The notes under the pieces are model-generated. The model saw only the letters and a program-made list of their open reading frames with translations, searched no databases and had not been told where the DNA came from. A stretch of DNA of 37,107 nt from Chitinophagaceae bacterium (GTDB lineage Bacteria; Bacteroidota; Bacteroidia; Chitinophagales; REEL01): contig REEL01000073.1 of assembly GCA_007695095.1 (NCBI GenBank), positions 1 to 37,107 on the forward strand. The letters are read 5' to 3'. Shown here piece after piece: positions 7,828 through 14,121 of this stretch (positions within the stretch are counted from its first letter, which is position 1; every line of letters starts with the position of its first letter). Position numbers and translations under genes: made by a program.

Positions 7828-7846
7828 ATTTAGAATTATTCTAAAT
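7828..7846. promoter_or_regulatory. Palindromic operator 1 of the iron-uptake operon
   Basis: A perfect 9-1-9 palindrome, ATTTAGAATTATTCTAAAT. It lies immediately upstream of the -33 element of the iron operon promoter. A second copy differing at only two central bases is centred exactly 60 bp away. A TTTAGAA half-site is reminiscent of DtxR/IdeR-type iron boxes; Fur is the alternative. Confidence 0.75.
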
Positions 7847-7849
7847 AAA

Positions 7850-7880
7850 TTTGCAGAATTAAAAATAAGCAATAATTTTG
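7850..7880 (+). promoter_or_regulatory. Promoter of the iron-uptake operon
   Basis: TTTG at 7850-7853, a 19-base spacer, and TAATTTTG at 7873-7880 match the Bacteroidota primary sigma-factor consensus (TTTG, ~19-20 bases, TAnnTTTG). The expected transcription start is around 7886-7888, giving a leader of about 47 bases before the receptor ATG. Palindromic operators flank it on both sides. A second, weaker -7 match, TAAATTTG, lies at 7846-7853. Confidence 0.75.
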
Positions 7881-7887
7881 GGGCACT

Positions 7888-7906
7888 ATTTAGAATCGTT
7901 CTAAAT
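7888..7906. promoter_or_regulatory. Palindromic operator 2 of the iron-uptake operon
   Basis: A second palindrome, ATTTAGAATCGTTCTAAAT (8-3-8), covers the predicted transcription start. Seventeen of 19 positions equal operator 1. Binding here would block initiation or early elongation, and with operator 1 could allow cooperative repression. Confidence 0.75.
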
Positions 7907-7933: not shown

Positions 7934-10336
7934 ATGAACAAAATATTTATGAGATTCTTTGCATCTATGGTCCTCATTACTTTATCTGCTATAACAATGC
8001 AATTATTTGCAGAAAACACTTCAAGACATCACTTAAGAGGTAATATAGTAAATAATGAAACCGAAGCTATTGGAAATGCCTTCGTTACATTGGAAGGTAC
8101 AGTTTATTCTACCGTCACAGATTTAGACGGAAACTTTATTTTAAGAAACATACCGGAAGGAAACTATAAGCTTATAGTACAGGTACTCGGTTATCAAAAA
8201 AAGGCAATAGATGTTCCGGTTAATGAAGAAAGCACGAAAGATCTGAATATTATTCTTTTAGAATCAATGTATGATATGCCGCAAATAGTTGTTTTGGGCA
8301 ACAGACACGGACTTTTTGACAGAGTTCCCGGTTCTGTTTCTGTTATTGATAAAATGCAAATTGAAAGAATTTCTCCGGTTTCCGGCAATGAAGTTTTTAG
8401 AAATACACCCGGAGTAAATGTGGTAGATGAGGAAGGCGTAGGATTAAGAGTTAACATTGGTATAAGGGGTCTGGATCCGGGCAGAAGCCGAAGCGTTTTG
8501 ATTATGGAAGATGGCATTCCGGTAGCATTGAAACCATATGGAGAACCTGAAATGTATTATACACCGGCCATTGAGAGAATGGAAGGTGTAGAAATTATTA
8601 AAGGAAGCGGTTCTATTCTTTTTGGCCCGCAAACTGTAGGTGGAGTTATTAACTACATTACTGCCGATCCACCGGCTGAATCTGAAGGTACTGTTAAGCT
8701 AACAGGTGGAGAAGGTGGATTTTTCACCGGTATGCTTCAATACGGAAATAGCTTTGGGAATAGTGGTGTTTCAATAAACTATTTAAGAAAACAGGCTGAT
8801 GCTGTTGGAATCACCAGTTACAGAATCAACGACCTAAACACTAAATTTAGAATGGATATTTCCGAAAAATCATCTTTAGGTCTGAAAATTGGTGTATATG
8901 ATGAGGTTTCTAACTCTACTTATGTAGGCATGACAACCAGTATGTATGAGTCAGGAGATTATGATAATGTTGTGTTAGCTCCAAATGATGAACTTGAAGT
9001 CAGAAGATATTCTCTAAGTGCAACTCATCAGATAAAATTCAATAAAAATATCCGATTAAGGACAACTGCTTTCGGATATACTACAACCAGAAACTGGCTT
9101 AGGCAAGATTATTCATATACACCTGTTGCAGACATGACAGGAGTTATATGGGGTGATACCTCTGTTGCAAATGGGGCAATTTATTTGAGAGACAGAACCG
9201 GAAACAGAAACAGACAATTTGAAGTGGCAGGTATTGAGCCACGCCTAAGCGTAAATTACAGATTAGGTAGTCTTGGAAACGAATTGGAAACCGGAATGCG
9301 TTTTTTATATGAAAGAGCTTTTGAACAGAGAATTAACGGCCCTATGGGTGACGTTCGTTCAGGAGATTTAAGAGATGATGAAATCAGAACCGGATATGCG
9401 TTAAGTGCTTATGCTCAAAATAGAATTATCGTTAATTCTAAGCTTAGTTTTACTGCCGGTTTAAGACTTGAGAATTATGAATATGAAAGAGATATATTAA
9501 GAACAAACTTTACAGATACTACTATTTTAGCCGGTAGTTCCACTACAAGCTTAATACCGGGAGCCGGTTTTAGTTATAGATTTACGCGATTAGCTTCTCT
9601 TTATGGCGGAGTCCACAGAGGTTTTGCCCCTCCCAGAATTAAAGATGCTATTTCTTCTGATGGCGAAGCCTATCAGCTTGATGCAGAAGACAGCTGGAAC
9701 TATGAATTGGGTATTAGAAGCACTCCTTTAAACGGACTTAGTTTTGAAGTAACCGGTTTCTTTATGGACTTCAACAACCAAATCATTCCGGTAGCTGAGT
9801 TTGCCGGTGGCGCAGGAGCAGGATTAATCAATGGAGGAAGCACCCGTCACTTAGGCGCTGAGTTTGGGTTTTCCGTAGATCCGGGTATTTTAGCCAATAC
9901 AAATTGGTCTTTCTTATTGAGATCAAGCTTCACTTATGTAAATGCTTATTATAATGAAGATCGATTTGTAGGTACGGACGGAGTCAATATTAAGAATAAC
10001 AAAACACCTTACTCTCCGGAGATACTTTTATACAATGCACTAAACATCACATCCCCATTTGGTTGGTATTTATATTTACAGGCAAACTATACCGGCGAGC
10101 AGTTTGCAGACCCTCTCAATACTGTTGAAGCTTCGGCAAATGGCAGAGTAGGTTTGATTCCTTCACATTTAGTATTGAATGCCTCTACAGGCTATAAAGT
10201 TGAACCATGGAATACTACTTTTAGTCTTAGTGTTAAAAACATTACAGATGAAAGATACATTTCTACCAGAAGGCCACAAGGTATAAGAGTTGGTCTGCCA
10301 AGGTTTATAACTGCCGGAATAAATTTCAACTTTTAA
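7934..10336 (+). CDS. TonB-dependent outer-membrane receptor, FecA-like, ferric iron uptake
   Basis: An 800-residue TonB-dependent transporter. A signal peptide (to about residue 27) is followed by a CarboxypepD_reg-like beta-sandwich (about 33-112, from LRGNIVNNETEAIG to NIILLES) that is typical of Bacteroidota receptors. The plug (about 125-240) has RGLDPGRSRSVLIMEDG from residue 178 and PYGEPEMYY, both hallmarks of the FecA-like branch. A 22-strand-type barrel ends with the outer-membrane signature ITAGINFNF. It is the first gene of an operon with periplasmic binding, permease and ATPase genes of the FbpABC type, and lies behind a promoter with twin palindromes. The ligand is probably a ferric chelate such as ferric citrate; that is inference. 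Confidence 0.9.
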   Translation: MNKIFMRFFASMVLITLSAITMQLFAENTSRHHLRGNIVNNETEAIGNAFVTLEGTVYSTVTDLDGNFILRNIPEGNYKLIVQVLGYQKKAIDVPVNEESTKDLNIILLESMYDMPQIVVLGNRHGLFDRVPGSVSVIDKMQIERISPVSGNEVFRNTPGVNVVDEEGVGLRVNIGIRGLDPGRSRSVLIMEDGIPVALKPYGEPEMYYTPAIERMEGVEIIKGSGSILFGPQTVGGVINYITADPPAESEGTVKLTGGEGGFFTGMLQYGNSFGNSGVSINYLRKQADAVGITSYRINDLNTKFRMDISEKSSLGLKIGVYDEVSNSTYVGMTTSMYESGDYDNVVLAPNDELEVRRYSLSATHQIKFNKNIRLRTTAFGYTTTRNWLRQDYSYTPVADMTGVIWGDTSVANGAIYLRDRTGNRNRQFEVAGIEPRLSVNYRLGSLGNELETGMRFLYERAFEQRINGPMGDVRSGDLRDDEIRTGYALSAYAQNRIIVNSKLSFTAGLRLENYEYERDILRTNFTDTTILAGSSTTSLIPGAGFSYRFTRLASLYGGVHRGFAPPRIKDAISSDGEAYQLDAEDSWNYELGIRSTPLNGLSFEVTGFFMDFNNQIIPVAEFAGGAGAGLINGGSTRHLGAEFGFSVDPGILANTNWSFLLRSSFTYVNAYYNEDRFVGTDGVNIKNNKTPYSPEILLYNALNITSPFGWYLYLQANYTGEQFADPLNTVEASANGRVGLIPSHLVLNASTGYKVEPWNTTFSLSVKNITDERYISTRRPQGIRVGLPRFITAGINFNF

Positions 10337-10355: not shown

Positions 10356-11366
10356 ATGAGATATCTTTTAATCTTTTTTTCAATTAGCTTGCTTTGGTCA
10401 TGTCAGGATTCAGGAGACTCTCTAAACATTTATATCAGCAGACATTATGAAATAGATGATAAGGTATTCAGGCAATTTGAAGAAAGGAGCGGTATTAAAG
10501 TAAATGTCTTAAAAGCAGATGCAGATCAGCTGATTCGAAGAATTGAAATTGAAGGAGAACATTCTCCGGCTGACATACTGATTACGGCTGATGCCGGCAG
10601 ATTAACACAGGCTGCTTCAAAGAATATGTTAGCTGAAATTCCCGGCTCCGTTTGGGAAGGTAAGCTTGATAAAAATTTAATAAGCCCTGATAAAAATTGG
10701 CTGGCAATAACTACCAGAACAAGAGTCATAGTATATAACCCTGTAAATGTTCAGTTTGAGGGGAATGAAAGCTATCTGGACTTGGCAAAACCGGAATATA
10801 AGGGAAAAATCTTAGTACGTTCTGCCGAAAATCCATACAATCAATCTTTAGCTGCATCTATTATTTATCACCATGGTACTGATAAAGCAGAGGAATGGAT
10901 TAAAGGAATTGTTGAGAATATGGCACGAACTCCAAGAGGTAACGATACGGATCAGATTAAAGGAGTAGCCGCAGGAATAGGTGATATTGCCATTGTAAAC
11001 TCCTATTATTTGGCTAAAATGCACAATTCTGCTAATCCAGAAGAACAGAGGGTGGCAGAAAGCCTTGAAATATTGTTTCCAAACCAATTGAGCACAGGTA
11101 CCCATTTGAATTTTTCAGGAGCAGCTATATTAAAAAACTCCAAAAATAAAGACCATGCTTATCAAATGCTTACCTATATGTTAGAACAAGATGCACAGGA
11201 TATTTATATGCTCGAAAATTTTGAATACCCCGCAGCTAACAACATAGAATTAAAAGGATTTTTAAAAAAATGGGAGCCATTTAGAAGAGATACTCTTCAT
11301 TTGAGTAATTTAGCTGAATTGCAAAATGAAGCAAACAGGCTTTTATATAAAAATGGTTGGAACTAA
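10356..11366 (+). CDS. fbpA: Ferric iron ABC transporter substrate-binding lipoprotein (FbpA/FutA type)
   Basis: A 336-residue binding protein. The signal is a lipobox ending at Cys16 (LLWSC), so it is anchored by lipid and not free. It starts with the family pattern NIYISRHYEIDDKVFRQFEERSG. The tandem tyrosines Tyr217-Tyr218 in IVNSYYLAK correspond to the Fe3+-coordinating tyrosine pair of FbpA/FutA. It follows the receptor gene by 19 bases and overlaps the permease gene, so operon membership is clear. It would take Fe3+ delivered through the receptor and pass it to the FbpB-type permease. Confidence 0.88.
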   Translation: MRYLLIFFSISLLWSCQDSGDSLNIYISRHYEIDDKVFRQFEERSGIKVNVLKADADQLIRRIEIEGEHSPADILITADAGRLTQAASKNMLAEIPGSVWEGKLDKNLISPDKNWLAITTRTRVIVYNPVNVQFEGNESYLDLAKPEYKGKILVRSAENPYNQSLAASIIYHHGTDKAEEWIKGIVENMARTPRGNDTDQIKGVAAGIGDIAIVNSYYLAKMHNSANPEEQRVAESLEILFPNQLSTGTHLNFSGAAILKNSKNKDHAYQMLTYMLEQDAQDIYMLENFEYPAANNIELKGFLKKWEPFRRDTLHLSNLAELQNEANRLLYKNGWN

Positions 11367-13026
11367 ATTAAAATCAATATTTAAAAAACTGCTTTCCATT
11401 AATTCTGAAAGATGGAGTAAAAGCAAATCAATAGCCGTATTACTTAGTACGGCTATTTGTATTCCTATAATTTTTATAATTTCTTACTTATTTATACCCG
11501 GTGGGGAAACCTGGAATTTCATCCTTGAAAATCTATTTTGGCACTATGTGACAGAAACTTTTATATTGATGATTTTCACTGCAGTTTTTGTAACTATCAT
11601 TGGTGTGTCAACAGCCTGGTTGGTCAGCACCTATAATTTCCCGTTTGTAAAACACTTTGAGTGGTTATTAATTTTGCCACTTGCAATTCCGGGATATATT
11701 GCTGCTTACACTTATTCCGGTATGTTTGATATTACAGGTCCGGTTTACTTCTTTCTCAATAATTACTTAGGCCATCAAAATACGATTAGCCTGCTTCCTG
11801 AAGTAAAAAGCATGTCCGGAGGCATATTCATACTGAGCATAGTATTATATCCATATGTTTATGTAGTTACCAGAGCTTATTTTTCTGTTCAATATACCAG
11901 CTATACTGAAGTTGCCTCTTCATTGGGTTTGAGCAATTTTCAAAGCTTTTTCAGATTAGCCGTTCCTATGGCCCGGCCGGCAATTGTAGCGGGAGTCAGT
12001 TTGGTATTAATGGAATTGCTAAACGATTATGGTACGGTGAAATATTTAGGTATAAACACCTTTACCATAGGTATATTTACATCCTGGTCTTCTTTCGGTG
12101 ATACCAGAGCCGCATTGAAAATAGCAGCATGGCTTTTGTTTATAGTAGTTGCTATTCTCTATCTGGAACGCAGACAAAGAGGAAGTGCCCGCTTTGAAAC
12201 ACAAGACAATACTTCTACAATTGCTACGAAACAGCATTTAAAAGGGTTCAGTGCATTTATAGCTGTTCTGGTATGCGGGCTTCCTTTTTTACTGGGATTC
12301 CTGCTACCGGTAGTTCAATTGCTATATTGGGCCAGCTTAACGTATGCAGATGTTTTAAACATGAATTTTTTGATACTTATTCAAAACAGTTTCGTATTAG
12401 CCTTTACGGCTGCAGGAATTTGTATTTTAATTGGAATTGCTCTTGCGTATTTGCAAAGAATTGAAAACTCATTTATTCAAAAAATAATTATTCGACTGGC
12501 TACGGTAGGCTATGCTATACCCGGGGCAGTTATTGCAATGGGAATATTAGTGCCTGCAGTAGCTATTGACAGGCAACTTATAGGTTTTGTGCAATTCTTT
12601 AATTCTGATTTTAACCAATTGATATTAACCGGCAGCATTGGCATTTTGGTATATGGCTATGTAGTCAGATTTTTAGCTGTAAGTTTTAACAGTTTGGATT
12701 CCGGTTTTGAAAAAATTCCCAGAGTCTTGGATGAGACTTCCAGAAGTTTAGGCTATAGTCCTTTTCAAACATTGTATAAAGTTAATTTACCTTTATTAAA
12801 GAAAAGCATTATTGCTGCCGGCATTTTAGCTTTTGTTGACATTATAAAAGAGTTACCTTTAACTTTGATTTTAAGGCCTTTTAATTTTGACACATTGGCC
12901 ATTAAAGCTTTTGAATTAGCCAGTGATGAACAAATTGCACAAAGTGCACCGGCAGCTTTGGTTATAATTATAACCGGTATTGTGCCCATTTTAATACTAA
13001 ATCGTATTTTTGCTAAACTTAAATAA
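11353..13026 (+). CDS. fbpB: Ferric iron ABC transporter permease, two fused BPD domains (FbpB type)
   Basis: About 557 residues with roughly twelve membrane helices in two homologous halves. Each half has an EAA-type loop that docks on the ATPase: EVASSLGLSNFQSFFRLAVP at residue 186 and DETSRSLGYSPFQTLYKVNLP at residue 460 (split here across adjacent segments). I prefer the ATG at 11353, which overlaps fbpA by 14 bases; an ATG at 11326 would extend the overlap to 41 bases and add nine residues of no clear value. The fused-permease layout is usual for the FbpB/AfuB ferric transporters. It is followed by the ATPase gene after 24 bases. Confidence 0.9.
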   Translation: MVGTKLKSIFKKLLSINSERWSKSKSIAVLLSTAICIPIIFIISYLFIPGGETWNFILENLFWHYVTETFILMIFTAVFVTIIGVSTAWLVSTYNFPFVKHFEWLLILPLAIPGYIAAYTYSGMFDITGPVYFFLNNYLGHQNTISLLPEVKSMSGGIFILSIVLYPYVYVVTRAYFSVQYTSYTEVASSLGLSNFQSFFRLAVPMARPAIVAGVSLVLMELLNDYGTVKYLGINTFTIGIFTSWSSFGDTRAALKIAAWLLFIVVAILYLERRQRGSARFETQDNTSTIATKQHLKGFSAFIAVLVCGLPFLLGFLLPVVQLLYWASLTYADVLNMNFLILIQNSFVLAFTAAGICILIGIALAYLQRIENSFIQKIIIRLATVGYAIPGAVIAMGILVPAVAIDRQLIGFVQFFNSDFNQLILTGSIGILVYGYVVRFLAVSFNSLDSGFEKIPRVLDETSRSLGYSPFQTLYKVNLPLLKKSIIAAGILAFVDIIKELPLTLILRPFNFDTLAIKAFELASDEQIAQSAPAALVIIITGIVPILILNRIFAKLK

Positions 13027-13050: not shown

Positions 13051-14121
13051 ATGGAAATTTTAAAAATTCTAAATCTTTGTAAAAAGTTTACTAATGCTGA
13101 TATTTCGGCAATTCATGATTTGAATTTAACGGTTAAAGATGGTGAGCTACTTGCTTTGTTAGGAGAAAGTGGCTCCGGAAAAACTACTTTAATCAGAATG
13201 ATTGCCGGGCTTGAGAAGCCGGACAGTGGAAAGATAATTTTAAGAGATGAAGTCATCTCAGACGATGACTATTTCATGCCTCCTGAAAAAAGAGGTATCG
13301 GCATAGTTTTTCAGCATTACTCATTATTCCCACACCTTACGGTAAAAGACAATATCTCATTTGGACTAACAAAGAAGTCGAAAGAAGTACGAAATGAAGT
13401 CGTAAATCGAATGTTAGTAATGACCGGTTTGTGCGGATATGAAAAAAGGTATCCTCATGAGCTATCCGGCGGGCAACAACAAAGAGTTTCTTTAGCCAGA
13501 GCTTTGGCTACAAACCCCTCTCTAATACTTTTAGATGAACCTTTCAGTAATCTGGACACTCCTTTGCGAATAAAAATGCGTGAGGAAATACAAAAAATCA
13601 TTAAGCAAACCGGAACCACAGCAATATTAGTAACTCATGACAATCAGGATGCCCTTGCTATTTCTGACAGAGTTGCAATATTGAAAAATGGTTTATTACA
13701 CCAGATTGACACTCCAGAGTGTATTTATAAAAAACCTTGTAATTGTTATGTAGCTAATTTTTTAGGCAAAACAAATATCATCCCGGCAAAAGTTTTAAAT
13801 GGCATGTACGAAAGTCCGATAGGTAATTTTAAAATCAATGGAAGTCAGATTAGCCCAACTTCTGATAATGAAGTAATGCTTTCGGTGCGCCCCGAATGTC
13901 TTAATTTATCAAAATTAAACTCTGAGGGCGTAAAGGCTACGGTTAGAAAAGTAAGTTTCATGGGAGAATACAGGGAAGTTCTGGTTGCCATAAAGCTTAA
14001 AAACGGCAGTAGTTTTCAGTTAAAAGTACATGTAAAAAATGATATGCCTTCAGAAATTCCAAATGAAGTATATATTTCCGCAGACAAAGAAAATATTATA
14101 CCGGTTGAAAATATTTGTTAA
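13051..14121 (+). CDS. fbpC: Ferric iron ABC transporter ATP-binding protein (FbpC type)
   Basis: A 356-residue ATPase. Walker A is GESGSGKT (38-45), the Q-loop is VFQHYSLFPHLTV, the signature is LSGGQQQR (138-145), Walker B is LILLDEP with Asp162-Glu163, and the H-loop is VTHDN. The C-terminal ~110 residues form a TOBE-type regulatory domain (SVRPECLNL...). This is the Fe3+/spermidine/sulfate importer class, and its neighbours fix it as the energy unit of the ferric transporter. It ends three bases from the end of the convergent aminotransferase gene, leaving no room for a separate terminator. Confidence 0.92.
   Translation: MEILKILNLCKKFTNADISAIHDLNLTVKDGELLALLGESGSGKTTLIRMIAGLEKPDSGKIILRDEVISDDDYFMPPEKRGIGIVFQHYSLFPHLTVKDNISFGLTKKSKEVRNEVVNRMLVMTGLCGYEKRYPHELSGGQQQRVSLARALATNPSLILLDEPFSNLDTPLRIKMREEIQKIIKQTGTTAILVTHDNQDALAISDRVAILKNGLLHQIDTPECIYKKPCNCYVANFLGKTNIIPAKVLNGMYESPIGNFKINGSQISPTSDNEVMLSVRPECLNLSKLNSEGVKATVRKVSFMGEYREVLVAIKLKNGSSFQLKVHVKNDMPSEIPNEVYISADKENIIPVENIC

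Follow-up and report, generated by a model that had tools for sequence, protein, structure and literature searches.

The classical Fur box TGATAATNATTATCA and the PerR box TTATAATNATTATAA are 7-1-7 inverted repeats with an AAT-N-ATT core, and this shape, which the core TTAGAAT-N-ATTCTAA also has, is typical of the Fur superfamily; the consensus of DtxR/IdeR regulators is of the TTAGGTTAGSCTAACCTAA type. The promoters of Bacteroidota typically have a pair of -33 and -7 elements. The Fur box that was derived for Riemerella anatipestifer RA-YM reads 5'-ATTTAGAATTATTCTAAAT-3', and promoter fragments carrying it were shifted by the purified Fur protein; the promoters chosen for gel shift were those of hmuR, sprT, RAYM_01847 (Fe3+-dicitrate receptor), and RAYM_09824 (PMC5609570).

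The same sequence, identical in every letter, was found in the genome of a Chitinophagaceae bacterium (G000) as the upstream member of a pair of palindromes in the window, i.e., the whole stretch of 37,107 nucleotides that was analyzed. The features of the locus are listed below; the promoter elements were identified from the sequence and by a pattern scan.

7828–7846, no strand: upstream putative Fur box ATTTAGAATTATTCTAAAT, centered at 7837, a perfect 9-1-9 palindrome with the 7-1-7 core TTAGAAT-T-ATTCTAA, equal to the Fur box published for R. anatipestifer
7850–7853, plus strand: TTTG, -33 element of a Bacteroidota-type promoter
7873–7880, plus strand: TAATTTTG, -7 element, separated by a 19-base spacer from the -33 element
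7888–7906, no strand: downstream putative Fur box ATTTAGAATCGTTCTAAAT, centered at 7897, at or just past the predicted +1
7934–10336, plus strand: TonB-dependent outer-membrane receptor with a CarboxypepD_reg-like domain, plug, and barrel; nearest solved structure FecA
10356–11366, plus strand: FbpA/FutA-type ferric-ion-binding periplasmic protein (E 5.9e-87 to 6g7n and 1.6e-80 to 1y4t)
11326–13026, plus strand: FbpB-type permease, a single chain with two BPD_transp_1 domains; assignment of the start codon uncertain
13051–14121, plus strand: FbpC-type ABC ATPase with a TOBE_2 domain

The centers of the palindromes are 60 bp apart, and the layout described in the initial annotation—twin sites flanking a promoter of TTTG, a 19-base spacer, and TAATTTTG—was exact to the base, both promoter elements lying between the boxes. 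The 7-1-7 inverted repeat with the AAT-N-ATT core is exact in the upstream box and one base off in the downstream box. If transcription starts 5–8 bases past the -7 element, the predicted +1 would be located at about 7885–7888, on the edge of the downstream palindrome; the first ATG of the operon, that of the receptor gene, is at 7934. The 17-mer core of the downstream box was also present in the genomes G007 (before a DUF4856 gene), G062, G114 (before feoA), and G149.

The set of genes characteristic of FbpABC importers, encoding a ferric-binding periplasmic protein, a two-domain permease, and an ABC ATPase, was present in one operon. The binding protein aligned over nearly its full length with the solved iron-binding proteins 6g7n and 1y4t, the latter deposited as an iron-uptake periplasmic iron-binding protein, and its tyrosine segments (SRHY/ARHY and NSYYLA/NTYYIG) were conserved in the alignments. 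The first ATG of the permease gene overlaps fbpA by 41 bases. The receptor, initially described as FecA-like, is so with respect to its closest solved structure (FecA, E 8e-40); however, it scored only 169.5 bits with the curated FecA model NF041676 (NCBIfam), the cut-off of which is 1100, and no FecA-type signaling domain was found in it with Pfam, the N-terminal domain being CarboxypepD_reg-like. The transporter parts were below every NCBIfam cut-off; hence, the ferric substrate was assigned on the basis of the solved homologues, the receptor, and the Fur boxes. We failed to find FeoB (PF07664) in the whole genome, so the FbpABC system of this operon may be a main route of iron across the inner membrane.

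The regulator gene is absent from the window, as had been noted before; its candidates were encoded on other contigs of the genome, which is a 3.49-Mb draft of 186 contigs with a completeness of 98.6%. A Fur orthologue (G000:C93:36278-36748; PF01475, E 6.4e-30) had Fur as its nearest NCBIfam model, with a score below the cut-off of this model, and is situated near what we take to be a RelA/SpoT-like gene and purA (neighbors named by reading). The recognition segment SRATVYNTL is nearly invariant among the conserved Fur orthologues. The genome also encoded a second Fur-family protein of 137 aa (C67:5688-6101) and one DtxR-family protein (C133:19151-19804), for which MntR is the nearest family. 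From the sequence evidence, we consider the palindromes to be Fur boxes, at which holo-Fur would doubly block the receptor-FbpABC promoter, with a probability of about 0.88; the most likely regulator is the Fur orthologue of contig C93.

The occurrence of the sites among 120 relatives followed Fur: of the 90 genomes in which Fur was clear, 36 carried exact sites, compared with 2 of the 30 others (Fisher p = 5e-4, no kinship correction), the latter two being G007, which is 75% complete, and G082. With the presence of DtxR, there was no association in the same relatives (p = 1, no kinship correction). These data bear on the preference of the initial annotation for a DtxR/IdeR-type over a Fur-type regulator; in this genome, the owner of the sites would then be the DtxR/IdeR/MntR-type protein of contig C133. 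Such a gene does exist in the genome, and TTTAG half-sites loosely resemble DtxR/MntR boxes; however, seven genomes with exact sites had no strong match to DtxR (G014, G024, G045, G062, G075, G084, and G092), the GG/CC typical of a classical DtxR box is missing, and the protein itself is nearest to MntR. The exact match with the published Fur box, which has the 7-1-7 core of Fur, together with the association with Fur and the lack of one with DtxR, leaves the DtxR/IdeR preference unsupported, and we regard this regulator as extremely unlikely. A DtxR/IdeR box was also rejected by its letters: TTTAGAATNATTCTAAA is without GG/CC and so does not conform to the TTAGGTTAGSCTAACCTAA-type consensus.

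The second Fur-family protein, PerR- or Zur-like, could bind the boxes in place of Fur. It is encoded in the genome, and the PerR boxes of other phyla (TTATAATNATTATAA) differ from TTAGAATNATTCTAA by one base per half. Yet the targets of the motif are iron, heme, and Fe-S genes rather than peroxide or zinc genes, and the published binding was obtained with Fur of a related organism (PMC5609570), making this protein a very improbable owner of the sites.

Exact TTTAGAATNNTTCTAAA sites were represented in the 3.49-Mb genome only by the two window palindromes, and TTTAGAANNNTTCTAAA without mismatch was likewise confined to these two places in the whole draft genome. With two mismatches, 117 sites were found in the genome versus 124 for the reversed control, and with up to three mismatches, 13 matches occurred in the window versus 12.9 expected; loose matches being at chance level, only near-exact sites are informative. 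The reversed control pattern gave 26 sites in 298 related genomes, i.e., about 0.09 per genome, which makes an accidental pair 60 bp apart very unlikely. In the genome-wide search for further motif copies before iron genes, suggested in the initial annotation, exact hits were limited to the window pair; a Fur gene is present, and the best further promoter site, ATTTAGAATCATTTCAAAT with one mismatch on contig C129, precedes hemA. This site (L108, 1501-1517; G000:C129:3208-3224) is located between the divergent hemA and aminotransferase genes; hemA of G405 (L269) has an exact box as well. A one-mismatch site in L003 is coding and lies inside sucC. The sucC coding sequence carries the exact motif in L052 and L153; the motif inside this gene, seen in unrelated genomes, is probably protein-driven and a false positive in scans. 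No box was found before fur itself.

In the same order, TTTAGAATNNTTCTAAA was carried by 60 of 299 genomes. The sites were predominantly promoter-located: 59 of the 70 fetched sites were at most 250 bp upstream of an ORF and 4 were inside long ORFs, in contrast to the 26 sites of the reversed control, of which 5 were upstream of and 19 inside ORFs (p = 4e-11). The two core positions beside the center were T in 52 and A in 48 of 72 sites, while the search pattern itself had set the outer letters. Class-wide, the 7-1-7 form TTTAGAATNATTCTAAA was found in 48 of 198 genomes versus 0 of 198 for the reversed control. The genes behind the order-level sites encoded FTR1 permeases, DUF4856 lipoproteins, HmuY, TonB receptors, and FeoA/FeoB, as well as a ZnuA-type binding protein, SufB, Mrp, class-V (NifS/IscS-like) aminotransferases, and RibBA; respiratory targets were c-type cytochromes, nuoA, and an sdhC-like gene, the latter named by sequence reading with no Pfam hit. 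The class-wide targets included TonB receptors, HmuY, heme oxygenase, an IscA-like protein, and hemA. A lack of enrichment at iron genes, which would have spoken against the initial annotation, was thus not observed in the relatives, and the idea put forward there, that an operon for ferric uptake is controlled in response to iron, is supported.

DUF4856 lipoprotein genes were recurrently found behind Fur boxes (L051, L063, L066, L149, and L154), which suggests that DUF4856 is an iron-uptake protein; the gene that follows in L066 encodes an imelysin-like lipoprotein. Exact boxes were also present directly 5' of LuxR-type response regulator genes in several families (L048, L056, L067, L152, L276, and L282, at about position 1500; Pfam-checked in L056 and L152 only), which may point to a conserved response regulator under iron control.

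Homologous fbp operons were found in few relatives. In the comparison of their upstream regions, also proposed initially, G048 had a box directly before fbpA, with one half degenerate; in G007 the identical TTTAGAATCGTTCTAAA lies just 3' of fbpC, before a DUF4856 gene, and the operon of G009 has no box. The control of the fbp operon is therefore conserved only in part.

Twin boxes around a TTTG/TTGG-N19-TAnnTT(T/C)G promoter recurred in four other lineages, with the following spacings and elements:

G022: 61 bp, TTGG-N19-TACATTTG, before a DUF4856 gene
G027: 65 bp, TTTG-N19-TAGATTCG, before a DUF4856 gene
G166: 59 bp, CTTG-N19-TAAATTCG, beside an imelysin-like gene
G354/G390: 57 bp, TTGG-N19-TACTTTTG (in G354)

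Near-exact twins, 47–77 bp from start to start, are rare: among 395 genomes they were found only in G000, G354, and G390. The twin layout is thus uncommon but recurrent, and the Fur site itself is already known. The commoner arrangement was a single box starting 3–6 bp past the -7 element, over the +1; accordingly, the downstream box of the window lies close to where a repressor site is usually found, and the upstream box abutting the -33 element is an addition to it.

With ample Fe(II), holo-Fur dimers would occupy both boxes, the upstream dimer adjoining the -33 element and the downstream one covering the transcription start, so that neither end of the promoter would be open to RNA polymerase and the TonB receptor-FbpABC operon would be off; when iron is scarce, Fur would be released and the operon would import ferric iron. 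We infer the binding of Fur, its metal response, and the steric blocking in this organism from published Fur work and Fur biology. The two dimers were initially supposed to cooperate, which in terms of Fur would mean that the proteins touch or form a small loop of DNA instead of acting independently. The recurrence of promoter-bracketing twin boxes at 57–65 bp from center to center in unrelated promoters is in favor of this, but 60 bp correspond to about 5.7 helical turns, and the 8 bp spread between lineages keeps no common helix face. We consider cooperation unlikely. Strict helical phasing was rejected with spacings of 57, 59, 60, 61, and 65 bp. This spread makes up most of a helical turn, so a phased contact of dimers is not needed and blocking both promoter ends suffices; simple double blocking by Fur is likelier than strictly phased cooperation.

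A different position of the box was characteristic of iron-using genes. Among 19 genes for cytochrome c, sdhC-like proteins, and nuoA, 17 had a box-to-ATG distance of 79–254 bp, the median for the 22 uptake genes being about 28 (p = 1.6e-5; promoters were called by consensus and gene classes were assigned after the sites were seen). In the sdhC-like promoters of three genomes the -7 element lies 73, 74, and 75 bp past the start of the box. Exact boxes 79–157 bp before the ATG were observed at sdhC-like genes (L135, L136, L137, and L117) and at cytochrome c genes (L058, L064, L072, L073, L125, L140, L141, L283, L284, and L289). These far-upstream boxes are where an activator, not a repressor, would sit, which we treat as a lead only. 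Tentatively, and with less than even odds, the Bacteroidota Fur box may act by position: over the +1 (about 6–60 bp before the ATG), as a single box or a twin clamp, it would repress iron uptake, and from approximately 80 bp or more upstream of the +1 Fur would, with plentiful iron, activate sdhC, cytochrome c, and nuoA. If true, Fur itself would perform iron sparing, with no small RNA.

The regulator class of the window promoter can be regarded as settled in favor of Fur, and the operon as a well-supported, ordinary ferric uptake operon under predicted Fur control, the site layout of which would let the cell shut iron import off once iron suffices. The experimental Fur box of one duck pathogen is hereby widened to a class-wide Bacteroidota Fur regulon readable from sequence, and testable predictions on Fur at the unusual Bacteroidota promoter follow from both the clamp of twin boxes and the boxes far upstream.

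Compared with known systems, the window boxes share with DtxR/IdeR boxes a palindrome at iron genes and TTAG outer ends, but differ in the lack of GG/CC pairs, in length and center, and in an occurrence not following DtxR. From the classical Fur and PerR boxes (TGATAATNATTATCA and TTATAATNATTATAA) they differ in the outer half-site, which is TTAG, not TGAT or TTAT. The operon resembles FbpABC/FutABC importers (e.g., 1y4t and 6g7n) in its binding protein, one-chain two-domain permease, and ATPase; however, it starts with a TonB receptor, whereas no receptor gene occupies this place in the homologous operons found in G007, G009, and G048. The closest likeness is to the boxes of R. anatipestifer RA-YM, with the identical 19-bp consensus ATTTAGAATTATTCTAAAT, a Fe3+-dicitrate-type receptor and HmuR among the targets, a distance of less than about 100 bp from the start codon, and a Bacteroidota promoter; while one box per gene is given for that organism (PMC5609570, Table 5), two near-perfect boxes bracket the promoter of the receptor-FbpABC operon in the window.
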